Shown: positions 24,679 to 31,834 of the stretch, in pieces
Layout of the letters: every line of letters begins with the position of its first letter
Numbering within the stretch: position 1 is the stretch's first letter
Origin: Rubrivivax sp.
Lineage (GTDB): Bacteria; Pseudomonadota; Gammaproteobacteria; Burkholderiales; Burkholderiaceae_C
DNA length: 50,387 nucleotides
NCBI GenBank assembly: GCA_004210455.1
Contig: SEFA01000047.1
Span: forward strand, 1-50,387
Direction: 5' to 3'
Translations under genes and position numbers: made by a program
The notes under the pieces: model-generated
The model's database searches: none
Seen by the model: the letters and a program-made list of their open reading frames with translations, nothing else
What the model was told of the DNA's origin: nothing

Positions 24679-26223
24679 ATGCTGAATCTGAATCGTTGGC
24701 GGCTGCGTAGCCGCGTGCTGGCTGGCTTCGCGCTGGTGATCGTGCTGATGGCCGTGGCCTCGGCGGTGGGCGTGATCCGGGTGTCGATGCTGCACCATCG
24801 CATCGAGCGTCTGGTCGAGGTCGACATGCACACCCTGGAGATCTCGCGCCAGTGGTCGGGCCTGACCGAAGGCAACATCCAGCGTCGCATCGTCCAGCTG
24901 GTCGTCGAGGACGAGAACTTCGTCAAGGCGTTCACGTCGCGCTCCAAGGAGTTGTCGGCACGGATCGACAAGATCCAGAAGGAACTCGACGAGAACATCA
25001 CCGAGAAGGAAGGCGCGCGACTGATCGACGAGATCGGCGCGGCGCGCAAGCGGTACCAGGATGCCCGCGAGGCGGCGATCAAGGTCAAGGAGGCCGGCTG
25101 CGACGTGAAGGCGGCCGCCGCGTCGCAACTGATCCCGTCGATGAACGACTATCTGGCCGCGATCGACAAGTTCGCCGAACACAACCGCGACCTGCTTCAG
25201 GCCGCGCGCAAGGAAGCCCAGGCCGAGGCGGAAAGCACCCGCAACCTGGTCATCGCGCTGATGACGGTGGCGATCGTGCTGGGCGTGGGCATCGCGCTGG
25301 TGATCACGCGCTCGGTGACCGAACCGCTGGCCGAGGCGCAGTCGCTGAGCCAGGCCATCGCCGACGGCGACCTGAGCCGCCGCGGCAAGGACGTGGACGG
25401 CACCGACGAGGTCGCCGCGCTGCGCCGCTCGCTGCAGGAGATGCAGCAGCGTCTGGCCAGCACCATCGCCAGCGTGCGCTCCTCCGCCGACCAGGTCCGC
25501 CATGCGTCGTCCGAGATCGCCACCGGCAACGCCGATCTGTCCAACCGCACCGAGCAGGCCGCCAGCAGCCTCGAAGAGACCGGCGCCGCGATGGCCCAGC
25601 TCGGCGAAGGCGTGAAGCTCAACGCCGAATCGGCCCGTGAAGCCGATGCGCTGGCGCAGACCGCCTCGCAGGTCGCCGGCCGCGGCGGCGCGATGGTCGA
25701 GCAGGTCGTCGCGACGATGAACGAGATCCAGCAGTCGTCCAACAAGATCGCCGACATCATCGGCGTCATCGACGGCATCGCGTTCCAGACCAACATCCTG
25801 GCGCTGAACGCCGCGGTGGAAGCCGCCCGCGCCGGCGAACAGGGCCGCGGCTTCGCCGTCGTGGCCAGCGAAGTCCGCTCGCTGGCCCAGCGCAGCGCGG
25901 AAGCCGCCAAGGAGATCAAGTCGCTGATCTCCGCCTCGGTCGAACGCGTGGACGGCGGCTCCCGCCTCGTCGGCGACACCGGCGCCACCATGCGCGAGAT
26001 CGTCACCAGCGTCGAACGCGTCACGCGCGTCATCGGCGAGATCTCCGCGTCGAGCGCGGCACAGTCGCTCACCCTCGGGGAAATCGGCCAGGCGGTCCAC
26101 CAGCTCGACCAGATGACGCAGCAGAACGCCGCACTCGTGGAGCAGTCGGCGGCCGCGGCCGAGTCGCTGAAGGATCAGTCCGCTCAGCTTGTCGAGACCG
26201 TCGCGAGCTTCAAGCTCGGCTGA
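24679..26223 (+). CDS. Methyl-accepting chemotaxis protein
   Basis: Transmembrane chemoreceptor. TM1 spans about 13-33, a four-helix-bundle-type periplasmic domain spans 35-188, TM2 about 190-210, and HAMP about 211-265. The signalling domain has the conserved hairpin tip [20 protein letters not shown] and [17 protein letters not shown]. 514 residues. There is no C-terminal NWETF-type pentapeptide. A good AAGGA ribosome site precedes ATG 24679. The ligand is unknown. No che genes are nearby, so it is an orphan receptor. Confidence 0.95.
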   Translation: MLNLNRWRLRSRVLAGFALVIVLMAVASAVGVIRVSMLHHRIERLVEVDMHTLEISRQWSGLTEGNIQRRIVQLVVEDENFVKAFTSRSKELSARIDKIQKELDENITEKEGARLIDEIGAARKRYQDAREAAIKVKEAGCDVKAAAASQLIPSMNDYLAAIDKFAEHNRDLLQAARKEAQAEAESTRNLVIALMTVAIVLGVGIALVITRSVTEPLAEAQSLSQAIADGDLSRRGKDVDGTDEVAALRRSLQEMQQRLASTIASVRSSADQVRHASSEIATGNADLSNRTEQAASSLEETGAAMAQLGEGVKLNAESAREADALAQTASQVAGRGGAMVEQVVATMNEIQQSSNKIADIIGVIDGIAFQTNILALNAAVEAARAGEQGRGFAVVASEVRSLAQRSAEAAKEIKSLISASVERVDGGSRLVGDTGATMREIVTSVERVTRVIGEISASSAAQSLTLGEIGQAVHQLDQMTQQNAALVEQSAAAAESLKDQSAQLVETVASFKLG

Positions 26224-26232
26224 CAAAAACAA

Positions 26233-26258
26233 ACGCCCGATGCGGGAGCATCGGGCGT
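26233..26258 (-). terminator. Terminator of tandem PEP-CTERM gene
   Basis: Perfect 11-bp stem ACGCCCGATGC / GCATCGGGCGT with a 4-nt loop. On the minus strand it is followed by TTTGTTTTTGTC, so it terminates leftward transcription from the gene ending at 26333. It sits only 10 bp from the chemoreceptor stop and may also stabilise that message. Confidence 0.85.
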
Positions 26259-26260
26259 CT

Positions 26261-26313
26261 GGGACTGGGACTGGGACTGGGACTGGGTCTGGGTCTGGGT
26301 CGAGGGTCGAGGG
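26261..26313 (+). repeat. GGGACT/GGGTCT tandem repeat, G-quadruplex candidate
   Basis: Nine GGG runs at 26261, 26267, 26273, 26279, 26285, 26291, 26297, 26304 and 26311, separated by 3-4 nt. The units are GGGACT (x4), GGGTCT (x2), then GGGTCGA variants. The plus strand satisfies the usual G3-N1-7 G-quadruplex pattern more than twice over. It lies between the stop at 26333 and the terminator, so it is in the 3' untranslated region (C-rich in RNA) of the minus-strand gene. Confidence 0.85.
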
Positions 26314-26332
26314 TCGGCTGAGGCCGACAGAC

Positions 26333-27427
26333 TCAAACGCTCTGACGGCGCTTGCGCAGCATCAGGGTCATGAGCGCGAGACCACCGAGGAACATGGCGT
26401 AGCTCTGCGGCTCCGGCACGGCGCTGGCCGGCAGCACGTTGAAGGTGGTCGAGTAGGTGGCGGCGATGCCGCTCGTACCGGCCGCCAGCGAACCGCCAGC
26501 GATGCCCTTGACGATCAGCGTGTAGTCGCCAGCCAGCATCGTCGAGTCGAGCCAGGCGCGCTGGTAGGTCGCATTGCCCATCGGCGTCGCGGGATCGATC
26601 GTCAGCGCCCGTCCGTTCAGCAGGACTTCGGTGAAGCTGATCTGCTGCCCCGCGCCCGCGCCGATCGTGATCAGCGAGGCGTCCACCAGGCCGGTGCCGG
26701 CATAGTGGAAGGTGAGCGTGTCCAGGAAGCTGCCTGCCTCGGTGTGCGTCACGAAGGGCGCGCCGGTCAGGCCGTTCTGGTCGCCGGCGAGGACGGTGTC
26801 GTGGGTCTGGTTCAGGTCCGACGCGGCCATCGCGCCAGTGGCAGCAGCGGCCAGCGCGGCAGAAGCCAGGACGGAGCGCGTGGCGCGACGGCGACGGACG
26901 ACGACGCCCATGCCGAACAGGCCCAGCGCCGCCAGCGCCATGCTGCCCGGCTCGGGGACCTGCGTGACGTTGATCGTGCCGGAGTAGCTGGCGCTGATCG
27001 CCGACCCGGGGGCCAGGCCTTGTCCGGCGTAGCCGCGCACGGTCAGGACCAGCGGACCGTTCAGCAGGTCGTCGTCCATGCGGCCGAATTCGAAGCCGCC
27101 CTGGAAGCTGCCCAGCGCGGTGCGGCTGAAGTTGACCGTCTGGCCGTTGACCGTGGCGCTGATGAAGTCGATGTTGAAGCGGGCCTGCTGCGCGCTCGTG
27201 GTCAGGCTGGCGTTGACCAGGCCCCAACGGTCCATGCCGGTGAAGGTGAAGGTGTCGACGAACTCGCCGGCCACCAGGTGGTTGATGGTGAAGCCCGCCG
27301 TCTTCGTGTCCACGGACGTGCCGGACTTCAGGGCGACGGACTGGGCCGCGGTGACCGGCGCGGCATGCGCGGCGGAGACAGCGGCGGCAACCAGGGCGGC
27401 GGCAAGGAAACGGGTCTTGAGCGTCAT
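26333..27427 (-). CDS. Tandem FxDxF PEP-CTERM protein with internal sorting signal
   Basis: A secreted protein sorted by exosortase, built of two related FxDxF-type units in one 364-residue frame. Unit 1: signal peptide (1-22, FLAAALVAAAVSAAHA), FVDTFTF motif (57-63), then a full PEP-CTERM signal (PEP at 158-160, hydrophobic 163-177, RRRR 178-181). Unit 2 follows without a stop: a signal-peptide-like stretch (RSVLASAALAAAATGAMA, 184-201), FLDTLTF (234-240) and a second PEP-CTERM signal (PEP 338-340, helix 342-357, RKRR). ATG 27427 starts the first signal peptide. The join carries no frame break. PEP-CTERM signals are normally strictly C-terminal, so an internal one is odd. It may be a gene fusion by loss of the intervening stop and start, or a polyprotein. 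Confidence 0.88.
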   Translation of the reverse strand: MTLKTRFLAAALVAAAVSAAHAAPVTAAQSVALKSGTSVDTKTAGFTINHLVAGEFVDTFTFTGMDRWGLVNASLTTSAQQARFNIDFISATVNGQTVNFSRTALGSFQGGFEFGRMDDDLLNGPLVLTVRGYAGQGLAPGSAISASYSGTINVTQVPEPGSMALAALGLFGMGVVVRRRRATRSVLASAALAAAATGAMAASDLNQTHDTVLAGDQNGLTGAPFVTHTEAGSFLDTLTFHYAGTGLVDASLITIGAGAGQQISFTEVLLNGRALTIDPATPMGNATYQRAWLDSTMLAGDYTLIVKGIAGGSLAAGTSGIAATYSTTFNVLPASAVPEPQSYAMFLGGLALMTLMLRKRRQSV

Positions 27428-27598
27428 GGCAATGCGGTCCGGAGACCTCGGAGACCCGCAGTGGCAGGCCGATGCAGCGGACTCTATCGACGGGGTGGCG
27501 GACGGCGTCCCCCGCGCCACGGGGGGAGCCATGCGCGCTCGCGCCCGGGTTGTGAGAAAGCGCACATGGGGGGTCGGACGCGTCGCCCTGAAACGACA

Positions 27599-27621
27599 AC
27601 GGCGCCCACGAGGGGCGCCGT
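27599..27621 (-). terminator. secA terminator
   Basis: Perfect 9-bp stem ACGGCGCCC / GGGCGCCGT with a 5-nt loop, 23 bp past the secA stop on the minus strand. It is followed by a moderately T-rich tract (GTTGTCGTTTC). Confidence 0.75.
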
Positions 27622-27643
27622 CGATCTCAAGGGCCGCGACCTG

Positions 27644-30403
27644 TCAGGCCAGCTTGCCGTGGCAGCTCTTGAACTTCTTGCCGCTGCCGCACGGGCAAGG
27701 GTCGTTGCGGCCGACGTGGCCCCATTCGGCCGGCACGGCTTCGGTGCCCCCGGCGACCGGCGCCGCGTCCTGCGACACCGAGCCATCCTCGTTCGGATGC
27801 GTGTAGGTCACGTTGCCGACGTTCTCCGCGCGCTGTTCGATCGCATCGGCGGCGGCCGTGGCTTCTTCCTGGGACTGGATGCGCACGTTCAGCAGCACCC
27901 GGGTCACTTCCAGCTTCACCGCGTCCAGCAGCTGCGAGAACAACTCGAAGGCCTCGCGCTTGTATTCCTGCTTGGGGTTCTTCTGCGCGTAGCCGCGCAG
28001 GTGAATGCCCTGGCGCAGGTAATCCAGCGAGGCCAGATGCTCGCGCCAGTGCTGGTCGATGCTTTGCAGCAGCACCATGCGCATGAACGGCGTGAACTGC
28101 TCCAGGCCGACGCGGTCCAGCTTGTCCTGGAAGGAGACCTCGCCCGCCTTCAGCACGGCGTCGAGCACGTCCTCGTCGGTCAGCGTCTCGCTCTTCCTGA
28201 GCATCTCGGCCAGCGGCACCTCGAGCTTCCACTCATCGCGCAGCACGCGTTCCAGCGCGGCCAGGTCCCACTGCTCTTCCAGCGACTCCTCCGGCACGAA
28301 GCCGCGGACCACGTCCGTCAGCGTGCCCTTGCGCAGGTGGGTGATCTGCTCCAGCACTTCCTGCGCCTCGAGGATCTCGTTGCGCTGCTGGTAGATGACC
28401 TTGCGCTGGTCGTTCGAGACGTCGTCGTATTCGAGCAGCTGCTTGCGGATATCGAAGTTGCGGGCTTCGACCTTGCGCTGCGCGCTCTCGATCGAGCGCG
28501 TGACGATGCCGGCCTCGATCGCCTCGCCCTCCGGCATCTTGAGCCGGTCCATGATCGCGCGCACGCGGTCGCCGGCGAAGATGCGCATCAGCTGGTCGTC
28601 CAGCGACAGGTAGAAGCGCGACGAGCCCGGGTCGCCCTGGCGACCGGAACGACCGCGCAGCTGGTTGTCGATGCGGCGGCTCTCGTGACGCTCGGTCGAG
28701 ATCACCCGCAGGCCGCCCGCGGCCTTCACCTGTTCGTGCAGCTTCTGCCAGTCGGCCTTCAGCGCGGCGATCTTCGCGTGCTTGTCGGACTCGGACAGCG
28801 CTTCGTCGTTCTCGATGGCGACGACGTCCTTCTCGATGCTGCCGCCCAGCACGATGTCGGTGCCGCGACCGGCCATGTTGGTTGCGATCGTGATCACGCC
28901 GGGACGACCGGCCTGCGTGATGATGTCGGCCTCTCTGGCGTGCTGCTTGGCGTTCAGCACCTGGTGCGGCAGCTTCGCCTTGGTCAGCAGTTCGGAGACC
29001 TTCTCGGAGTTCTCGATCGAGGTCGTGCCGACCAGCACCGGCTGGCCGCGCTCGTGGCAGTCGCGGACGTCCTGCGTGACCGCGTCGTACTTTTCCTTGG
29101 TCGTCTTGTAGACCAGGTCCAGCTCGTCCTTGCGGACCGTCGGGCGGTTCGGCGGGATCACCACGGTTTCGAGGCCGTAGATCTCCTGGAACTCGTAGGC
29201 CTCGGTATCGGCCGTGCCGGTCATGCCCGACAGCTTGCCGTACATGCGGAAGTAGTTCTGGAAGGTGACCGAAGCCAGCGTCTGGTTCTCGGCCTGGATC
29301 TGCACGCCTTCCTTGGCCTCGACGGCCTGGTGCAGGCCGTCGCTCCAGCGACGGCCCGTCATCAGGCGGCCGGTGAACTCGTCGACGATGATGACCTCGC
29401 CGTTCTGCACCACGTAGTTGGTATCGCGGTGATACACGTGGTGGGCGCGCAGCGACGCGTACAGGTGGTGCATCAGCGTGATGTTGGCGGCGTCGTAGAG
29501 CGACGCGCCCTCGGCCAGCAGGCCGGCCTGGCCCAGCAGGCGCTCGGCGTTCTCGTGACCGTCCTCGGTCAGGTAGATCTGGTGCGACTTCTCGTCGACG
29601 GTGAAATCGCCGGGCTCGGTCACGCCCTCGCCGGTGCGGGGATCCAGCTCGCCGACCTGGCGCTTCAACTGCGGCGCGACCGCGTTGATCGCCACGTACA
29701 TCTGCGTGTGGTCCTCGGCCTGGCCGGAGATGATCAGCGGCGTGCGGGCCTCGTCGATCAGGATCGAGTCCACCTCGTCGACGATCGCGTAGGCCAGGCT
29801 GCGCTGCACGCGGTCGCGCACCTCGTAGACCATGTTGTCGCGCAGGTGGTCGAAGCCGTATTCGTTGTTGGTGCCGTAGGTGACGTCGGCGCCATAGGCG
29901 GCCTGCTTCTCGTCGCGCGGCAGGCCCGAGTAGTTGATGCCCACGGTCAGGCCGAGGAAGCGGTACAGGCGACCCATCCACTCGGCGTCGCGCCGGGCCA
30001 GGTAGTCGTTGACCGTCACCACGTGCACGCCCTTGCCGGTCAGCGCGTTCAGGTAGACCGGCAGCGTCGCCATCAGCGTCTTGCCTTCACCGGTGCGCAT
30101 TTCAGCGATCTTGCCGGCGTTCAGGACCATGCCGCCGATCAGCTGCACGTCGAAGTGGCGCATCTTGAGGATGCGCTTGCTGCCTTCGCGGCAGACGGCG
30201 AAGGCCTCGGGCAGGATGTCGTCGACGGTCTCGCCCTGGGCGATGCGCTGCTTGAACTCCTCGGTCTTCGCGCGCAACTGGTCGTCGCTCAGGCCCTCGA
30301 ACTGCGGTTCCAGCGCGTTGATGCGCTCGACGTCCTTGCGATAGGTCTTGAGCAGGCGCTCGTTGCGACTGCCGAAAATCTGGGTCAAAAGCTTGGGCAA
30401 CAT
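27644..30403 (-). CDS. secA: Preprotein translocase ATPase SecA
   Basis: Motor ATPase that drives unfolded proteins through SecYEG. The N-terminus [19 protein letters not shown] is diagnostic and fixes the start at 30403. Walker A is MRTGEGKTL, the DEAD-like box is [17 protein letters not shown], the second helicase domain has [14 protein letters not shown] and [12 protein letters not shown], and the C-terminal zinc/SecB-binding motif is [18 protein letters not shown]. 919 residues, the usual size. It is divergent from a DciA-like gene, the arrangement commonly seen in Burkholderiales. Confidence 0.98.
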
Positions 30404-30659
30404 GCGGCTTTTTGAAGTTCTGTGGAGGGCCCGGTCGACCGGGCCTGAACGCCCGGCGGACCGCCTCGTGGGCGGCCTGATGAGGGCAGCGCCGCGCGAC
30501 CGGTGCACATGAGGCCAAGGGCCTCGGGTTGCAAGCGTCTGCGCGGAGAAAAACCGGTGGAGTTTAGCACCCGCCCCTCGGCGGCATCGGGCGGCGGCCC
30601 CTGCGCCGGACCGGCGGCGGACTCCGGGTTTCCGAGCGGCAGGACTACACTGGCGGCCC
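30404..30659. other. secA/dciA divergent promoter region
   Basis: 256 bp separating secA and the dciA-like gene. No further gene or RNA could be supported. No unambiguous -35/-10 pair is seen. Confidence 0.5.
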
Positions 30660-30995
30660 ATGTCCACCCGCTACCTGCCTCCTCGCGCCAAGCCCGACGC
30701 GCCCGATCCGCTGGACTTCGGACGGGCCATGTCGCAGAACGGCACGCTGGCCCGGTTGGGGACCCAACTGGCGCTGTCGCGGCGGCATCTGGCGGCGGTG
30801 AGCGTGGCGCTGCCGGGGGCGATGACACGTTTCGTCCAGGCCGGCACGCTCGACGAGCACGGCTGGACACTGGTGGCCGACAACGCCGCCATCGCCGCCA
30901 AGCTGCGGCACTTGCAGCCGACGCTGCTGCGCCTGCTGCGCGAGGAAGGCCTGCTGCTGGAAGGCGAACTCCGCATCCGCGTCAGGCAATCCTGA
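30660..30995 (+). CDS. DciA/DUF721 family protein
   Basis: Small DUF721-type protein related to DciA, the predicted loader of the replicative helicase DnaB in bacteria that lack DnaC. The recognisable core is [40 protein letters not shown] and LLRLLREEG. 111 residues, shorter than DciA of some other bacteria but normal for betaproteobacteria. ATG 30660 lies 256 bp from the divergent secA start. It is followed at 31032 by a hairpin terminator. Confidence 0.8.
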
Positions 30996-31072: not shown

Positions 31073-31756
31073 TCAGTCCTTGCGGCGCAGGCGGCGCGCG
31101 CCACCCAGGCCAGCGAGGGCGATCACGGCCAAGGCCAGCGAGGCCGGTTCCGGCACGTCGTTGTTCTGCTGGGCGCCTTCGACGTTCAGGATGTCGAAAG
31201 CCCACAGCGCGTTGCGTTCACGGCCACCGGCGTCGCAGAACACGCCGTTGGCGCACTTGCCGTTCAGGAAGTTGGGGTTGCCGTCGTAAGTGAAGCCGTT
31301 GGCCAGGTCGGGGCCGAGGGCGAAGTTGTCGAACTGCATCACCGCGACCGTGTAGACCCCGGCGCTCAGCGTGAGGTCCAGGCAGGTGTCCCAACGCATG
31401 CCGCCCGCCGGATCGGGATTCACCGCGCCGCCGCCGCAGGTGCCGGGCGTGCCGCTGGTGGCGTCGTCGTTCTGGCCGACCAGAGCGCCGCTGGCATTGA
31501 ACAGCGCCAGGATCGGATCGAAGCCGCCGGCGGCGACCACGTTGCCGTCAGCCTGCGTGCCGCCCGCGTAGCTGTAGGTGATCAGACGGACCGCCGACGA
31601 GCCGTTCGCCGTGAAGGTGAAAGTCTGGACGTCGTTGGCCTGCGCGAAGCTGCCGGCGAACGAGAAGTTGGTCGGTGCCGCATGGGCGACGGCGGAGAGG
31701 CCGAGCGCTGCGACGGCGGCCAGGGCGGCAGCACCACGACGGAACAAGCTGTGCAT
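31073..31756 (-). CDS. DVUA0089-type PEP-CTERM protein
   Basis: Secreted protein with a PEP-CTERM anchor. Signal peptide at residues 1-26 (FRRGAAALAAVAALGLSAVAHA). The body follows the DVUA0089 pattern: FAGSFAQANDVQTFTFTANG, GGFDPILALFNASGALVGQN, DD, then LSAGVYTVAVMQFDNFA. It ends with VPEPASLALAVIALAGLGG and the basic cluster ARRLRRKD. 227 residues. ATG 31756 is preferred because it begins the signal peptide. A sigma-54 promoter lies about 63 bp upstream. Exosortase and the exopolysaccharide genes that usually accompany such proteins are not in the window. Confidence 0.9.
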   Translation of the reverse strand: MHSLFRRGAAALAAVAALGLSAVAHAAPTNFSFAGSFAQANDVQTFTFTANGSSAVRLITYSYAGGTQADGNVVAAGGFDPILALFNASGALVGQNDDATSGTPGTCGGGAVNPDPAGGMRWDTCLDLTLSAGVYTVAVMQFDNFALGPDLANGFTYDGNPNFLNGKCANGVFCDAGGRERNALWAFDILNVEGAQQNNDVPEPASLALAVIALAGLGGARRLRRKD

Positions 31757-31818: not shown

Positions 31819-31834
31819 AGCAAGGGTTATGCCA
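31819..31834 (-). promoter_or_regulatory. Sigma-54 promoter of PEP-CTERM gene
   Basis: Minus strand TGGCATA-ACCC-TTGCT (31834 to 31819) fits the -24/-12 consensus, with GG and GC exactly 10 bp apart. The predicted start is near 31807, about 50 bp before ATG 31756. Sigma-54 control (PrsK/PrsR type) of PEP-CTERM genes is established in related bacteria, which supports the call. Confidence 0.8.

Follow-up and report, generated by a model that had tools for sequence, protein, structure and literature searches.

The window analysed here, a stretch of 50,387 nucleotides (positions 1 to 50,387 of contig SEFA01000047.1, from the Rubrivivax sp. assembly GCA_004210455.1), carries on its minus strand a single open reading frame in which two PEP-CTERM protein units follow one another in one polypeptide. 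That frame and its immediate surroundings comprise the following features.

26333..27427, minus strand: fused double PEP-CTERM gene, 364 amino acids plus stop, matched by NF038126 in two stretches
27362..27427, minus strand: N-terminal signal peptide, residues 1-22 (...SAAHA/APV), placed by eye and by alignment with relatives
26960..27361, minus strand: first FxDxF domain, residues 23-156 (FVDTF), from NF038126
26885..26959, minus strand: internal PEP-CTERM signal, residues 157-181 (VPEP, hydrophobic helix, RRRR), from PF07589
26825..26884, minus strand: internal signal-peptide-like segment, residues 182-201, ending A-M-A/A, from a hydropathy peak of 2.15 and A-x-A
26420..26824, minus strand: second FxDxF-family domain, residues 202-336 (FLDTL), from NF038126
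26336..26419, minus strand: terminal PEP-CTERM signal, residues 337-364, from PF07589 (27.5 bits on the half)
26230..26261, minus strand: terminator-like hairpin just 3' of the fused gene, a 14-pair stem and a T run
27644..30667, minus strand: secA, the conserved upstream neighbour across a gap of 216 nt, from its open reading frame and the SecA C-terminal motif

The 364-residue frame contains no internal stop. The FxDxF PEP-CTERM model NF038126 (cut-off 50 bits) scored 194.8 bits on the whole protein, and 104.4 and 103.0 bits on its N- and C-terminal halves alone, while the PEP-CTERM model PF07589 (cut-off 20.7 bits) matched twice, at 30.7 bits on the half carrying the internal signal and at 27.5 bits on the half carrying the terminal one; in a scan of the entire genome with the latter model, the corresponding values were 34.9 versus 31.2 bits. 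The two halves are themselves 38% identical over 138 residues (E 6e-18). Each signal consists of a PEP motif, a hydrophobic helix and a basic cluster, with the PEP motifs at residues 158-160 and 338-340, the arginines of the first signal at 178-181, and an A-M-A sequence at 199-201. The original prediction, made from the letters of the DNA, that two complete units share one clean frame and that a full sorting signal (with PEP and arginine cluster at just these residues) lies in the middle of the chain was thus confirmed by both models; its description of a second FxDxF domain was upheld by the profile match of the C-terminal half, but not by the literal motif, which reads F-L-D-T-L in unit 2 and FVDTF in unit 1. 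The second signal occupies the C-terminus, and the first ends 183 residues short of it. No solved structure matched the protein by sequence at E 0.1.

The terminator-like hairpin at its 3' end, together with the 216 nt gap that separates it from secA, gives the fused gene the appearance of a unit of its own. A short G-rich hexamer repeat (GGGACT/GGGTCT) adjoins that hairpin at window positions 26260-26318, and a GC-rich hairpin-like stretch (CTCCCCCCGTGGCGCGGGGGAC, gene strand) lies 5' of the gene at 27508-27528 and is largely conserved in the four species that carry the fusion. No sigma-54 site with two or fewer mismatches was found near the start of the fused gene, and no sigma-70-type promoter match was found within 26100-27800. 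Elsewhere on the minus strand a sigma-54-like -24/-12 site with one mismatch (31819-31834) lies about 63 nt ahead of the likely start of another PEP-CTERM gene (approximately 31073-31756); over the whole window, sigma-54-like sites numbered 18, as against 21.6 expected by chance.

Fused and separate forms among relatives

The original prediction further suggested the loss of a stop and a start between two paralogs, and recommended that related genomes be searched for the same gene either as one frame or as two adjacent genes. Relatives were sought in 16 genomes of Roseateles, that of the window (G000) included, and their frames were read individually. Both forms were found, as that proposal would have it: a fused gene is present in four genomes (the window genome together with G006, G002 and G007, whose proteins are 90%, 65% and 65% identical, respectively, to that of the window), and the two halves exist as adjacent, separate genes in seven others (G004, G012, G015, G005, G009, G010 and G008), with intergenic gaps of 26, 38, 39, 39, 40, 62 and 174 nt. 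Among the remaining genomes, the locus of G011 is interrupted at the end of a contig, where the only strong match corresponds to the N-terminal half and no C-terminal half was found; G003 gave a single weak match, and no match was obtained in G001, G013 or G014.

In other genera of the family (G271, G265, G077 and G188) tandem pairs occur as separate genes, which makes two genes the likely older state. These four genomes had been considered as possible fusions on the basis of frame length, and were set aside once their frames were read as two genes. By comparison with the unfused pairs, the stop, the spacer, the second start and the second n-region are shown to have been lost in the fused lineage. 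The pair or fusion is found directly downstream of secA (26333-30667 in the window); the SecA C-terminal motif was present upstream in 13 of the 15 loci examined, fused and unfused alike (all 12 from Roseateles, and G271 from another genus), and was absent upstream of those in G265 and G188.

Phylogenetic trees of the two halves were consistent with a common origin of the fused genes. In the tree of N-terminal halves (15 rows), the four fused rows and the truncated one from G011 group together, five rows in all, with support of 97/92; in that of C-terminal halves (14 rows), the four fused rows group together with support of 91/93, which lies below the tool's mark of 95. G002 and G007 branch differently in the two trees, and long branches are seen for several rows outside the group. 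A single fusion event appears to be the simplest reading of fused clades in both trees.

The window genome is a draft assembly in 189 contigs, and an error of sequencing or assembly might in principle hide a stop codon within a pair of ordinary genes; such an artefact is scarcely conceivable, however, given that the fused frame is common to four assemblies (and in one of these, G007, to two contigs) and that the spacer and start of the second gene are missing altogether rather than shifted. A sequencing error at the junction was rejected because the same frame recurs in those four assemblies, and the related objection, that homologs would always be two genes and the window gene a lone artefact, fails too, the fused form being found in four assemblies at 65-90% identity. 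That two PEP-CTERM genes have genuinely been fused into one frame is close to certain.

The junction and its second signal peptide

The fused genes retain no spacer, and the sequence VPEP, a helix and RRR(R) passes directly into a hydrophobic stretch followed by A-x-A. The four fused junctions end in ATGAMA, ATGAMA, ATGAQA and ATGAHA, and an internal n-region, a hydrophobic region and an A-x-A site were recognized in all four by simple rules of hydropathy and motif rather than by a trained predictor. The peak hydropathy of the second signal peptide (over 11 residues) ranges from 2.15 to 2.63 in these proteins, and that of ten signal peptides from unfused second genes ranges from 2.11 to 2.63, so that the signal-peptide-like character originally ascribed to this segment, with a hydropathy of 2.15 and A-x-A in the window protein, extends to every fused form. 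The internal PEP-CTERM signals of the same four proteins score 30.7, 28.0, 26.1 and 24.4 bits with PF07589, all above the cut-off of 20.7, and the terminal signals score 27.5, 25.9, 28.0 and 25.4 bits.

Whether such a junction might result simply from reading through a stop codon was gauged from the tails that lie past the stops of single-signal PEP-CTERM ends. Comparable hydrophobic stretches with A-x-A appeared in five of 117 tails, where tails shorter than 40 residues were left out uncounted and the hydropathy threshold of 1.9 was set after the junction values were known. Four of those five were read as signal peptides that belong to actual PEP-CTERM genes lying in tandem downstream, and two of these four are near-identical relatives. 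Since so few tails are comparable, and four of these were read as the starts of actual genes, the junction is unlikely to be a chance product of read-through.

Selection on the separate parts was estimated from six pairs among the fused genes, with small counts for the signal-peptide stretches of about 20 codons each. Pairwise dN/dS was 0.42-0.89 for the first signal peptide and 0.13-0.83 for the second; 0.15-0.54 for domain 1 and 0.19-0.83 for domain 2; and 0.14-0.54 for the internal PEP-CTERM signal and 0.09-0.65 for the terminal one. These sequence comparisons show the open frame of the fused gene to be kept under purifying selection in four species. The raw dN values of the second signal-peptide stretch (0.26, 0.39, 0.45, 0.30, 0.28 and 0.09) exceed those of the first (0.12, 0.26, 0.26, 0.17, 0.19 and 0.19 for the same pairs) in five of the six comparisons, and only the ratio dN/dS is similar or lower. 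The letters of the second signal peptide are therefore not better conserved than those of the first, and what has been kept is its character, a result that was counted against cleavage of the chain into separate proteins. In a neutral simulation, with a threshold likewise chosen after the junctions were known, the share of runs that retained signal-peptide features was 20% for 0.28 changes per site, 11% for 0.45 and 7% for 0.6. Of 5000 runs, 0.3% retained them in the three other lineages together when these were taken as independent; G002 and G007 have part of their history in common, which brings the neutral probability closer to 0.02 (0.196 x 0.106).

Other frames with more than one PEP-CTERM signal

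Junctions of like build were found in additional PEP-CTERM proteins: three within one frame of G011, one (with a longer linker) in G007, and one each in G131 and G379. The first of these, from Mitsuaria sp. GD03876, is a 1313-residue frame (L096:2247-6188, on contig C21 of G011) that carries four PEP-CTERM signals, with PEP at 318, 639, 968 and 1289; it is present in one assembly, and its relatives in G006, G013, G003 and G002 are one-signal frames. All four of its units exceed the PF07589 cut-off of 20.7 (29.3, 28.1 and 27.8 bits for the internal signals, 33.2 for the terminal one), and at each of its three inner junctions a basic region is followed by a hydrophobic stretch and then by an A-x-A-like site. 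The G007 frame encodes 455 residues and two signals, and its linker contains in-frame GTG codons, one of them with a 4-base Shine-Dalgarno match.

Within the window genome, the PF07589 scan returned 31 matches in 29 frames, of which two contain two signals: the fused gene itself and a frame of 738 residues on contig C18, whose open reading frame (L147:1848-3881) encodes 678. The latter retains, in frame, the ribosome site AAGGAG and the ATG of its second gene, and hence may represent an intermediate of fusion. Separately, arrays of three PEP-CTERM frames with similar tails, each in its own frame, occur at G007:C1:4966500-4971500 and G006:C30:118500-123500 (L099 and L100), and look like raw material for fusions.

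A profile of the junction was then compared with 399 genomes of the family (145 of them with a match at E 1e-7, and at most the best 16 candidates per genome scored), which yielded at least two further stop-free candidates, those of G131 and G379, both from other genera. The second PEP-CTERM end of the former is degenerate; in the latter TIGR02595 finds one signal only, the second having been read by eye, and an ATG is present in frame, preceded by a Shine-Dalgarno match of 4 bases. In the scan across the order (399 genomes, of which 45 matched at 3e-10, with no more than the best 17 candidates scored in each), no stop-free span of the profile besides that of the window was present among the matches listed. 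As the initial survey of the family scored at most the best five candidates per genome, and all of these counts derive from the best candidates and the matches listed, each number of fusions is to be read as 'at least'. The fused build looks recurrent but uncommon within the scans made; its scarcity across the order, among the matches listed, was also counted against cleavage into separate proteins.

Processing of the fused chain

The window genome encodes two exosortases, XrtA (342 bits, cut-off 208), which carries an EpsI domain, and XrtB (324.5 bits, cut-off 275). These account for its two matches to the exosortase family PF09721, with no XrtH among the two found by that search; two such matches were found in each of the 16 Roseateles genomes, and two each in G131 and G379. 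The fused protein resembles the substrates of the PEP-CTERM/exosortase system (PF07589, TIGR02595) in its signal peptide, PEP motif, helix and arginine cluster and in the exosortases that accompany it, but departs from them in possessing, besides the usual signal near the C-terminus, a complete internal one that is kept in four species. It is likewise close to the FxDxF family, both halves scoring well above the NF038126 cut-off and the unfused relatives being single-unit genes in seven of 16 genomes; that model, however, spans 165 positions that make up one unit with one terminal signal, and the window protein has two units in one chain.

We favour a reading, somewhat more probable than not, in which the fused product is a secreted polyprotein that signal peptidase I and exosortase would cut into two surface proteins. 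An ancestral tandem of FxDxF PEP-CTERM genes below secA lost its stop, spacer, second start and second n-region in an ancestor of part of Roseateles. According to this proposal, the N-terminal signal peptide would direct the export of domain 1, until the hydrophobic part of the first PEP-CTERM signal stops transfer and leaves its arginine cluster in the cytoplasm; that same cluster would serve as the n-region of the second signal peptide, which would begin the export of domain 2, so that a hairpin in the membrane would arise at the junction. Signal peptidase I would then cut after A-x-A (A199-M-A201), and exosortase at both PEP motifs, releasing two separate surface proteins as they would be made from two genes in the unfused relatives. 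The topology and both cleavages are what we infer. The proposal would explain the joint retention of the PEP motif and A-x-A, as well as the like joining of other PEP-CTERM genes.

The main rival is an uncut membrane protein of two domains, in which the first PEP-CTERM signal and the second hydrophobic segment together remain as a hairpin anchor, processing being confined to the terminal signal or absent altogether. A hairpin anchor would likewise retain hydrophobic stretches, the faster raw dN of the second signal peptide suits it, and the PEP-CTERM domain is described in Haft 2006 (PMC1569441) as a C-terminal signal, located near the C-terminus virtually without exception, for which rare regions with long tails were suggested to be perhaps non-functional. 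The PEP motif and A-x-A, however, go beyond hydrophobicity and are kept in all four fused species, and similar junctions have arisen in further PEP-CTERM proteins. An uncut chain is judged unlikely, though it retains an appreciable share of the probability; of the two fates between which the original prediction did not choose, a cut chain and a two-anchor protein, we favour the former.

Cutting might also be partial, with signal peptidase I freeing domain 2 at the second signal peptide while domain 1 stays anchored by the hairpin, the internal PEP-CTERM signal being no substrate for exosortase when its arginine end is not a free C-terminus. The retained features of the second signal peptide are compatible with this outcome, as is the report in that source (PMC1569441) that fewer than 10 residues follow the domain in 87% of PEP-CTERM proteins. 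It is rendered improbable by the internal signals, which score like terminal ones and whose pairwise dN/dS values overlap with theirs.

More doubtful still is an internal translation start within the first PEP-CTERM helix, such as the ATG at 26909-26911, that would also yield the second protein. Close to the junction, G000, G006 and G007 do contain ATG or GTG codons in frame, and the two-signal frame on contig C18 keeps both the AAGGAG and the start codon ATG of the second gene; none of the candidates in the window family, however, displays a Shine-Dalgarno match that reaches four bases, as three of six unfused second-gene starts do. Such a match is missing as well from all five first-gene starts examined, which makes its absence at the junction weak evidence. 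In G002, apart from the valine codon of VPEP, no ATG, GTG or TTG occurs between the first PEP motif and the second signal peptide.

Bacterial polyproteins that are cut at an internal signal peptide exist, an example being the cytochrome b/c1 protein FbcH of Bradyrhizobium. That protein is similar to the proposed polyprotein in placing a membrane segment ahead of an internal signal peptide cut by signal peptidase, and differs in having no exosortase signal and no known sequence relation to the window protein. A sorting signal cut in mid-protein is also implied by the name of the 'midcut-by-XrtH' family (NF033207); matches at the junctions were weak, at 16.3 bits for the window protein and 23.1 for the four-signal protein of G011, both below the cut-off of 45, and the exosortases found in the window genome are A and B. 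To our knowledge, exosortase cleavage at an internal position has not been published, and no description of a functional internal PEP-CTERM signal was found in the limited open-access literature consulted.

By analogy, the released units may act as matrix proteins. In Aquincola, one study (PMC9850573) describes that overexpression of the PEP-CTERM protein PepA moved exopolysaccharide from a soluble to a bound form and allowed an rpoN1 mutant to form flocs again, and that the signal peptide of PepA seemed to be cleaved and its C-terminus might be.

It is possible, though we would put it just short of an even chance, that tandem PEP-CTERM genes have time and again been condensed into secreted polyproteins with two to four units linked through compact hairpins, from which exosortase, acting internally, and signal peptidase I would together release several surface proteins. 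Under that generalization, the basic tail of each exosortase signal would double as the n-region of the signal peptide that follows, and exosortase would have to work on internal sites.

The fused gene is a natural experiment on whether a free C-terminus is required by exosortase, a fundamental point for an enzyme whose mode of action has so far been poorly defined, and the two- and four-signal forms, beside their unfused relatives, provide ready comparisons. If the chain is cut, it would represent a cheap path from tandem genes to a secreted polyprotein, for which housekeeping proteases and exosortase suffice, and the notion that internal PEP-CTERM regions are non-functional would have to be revised.
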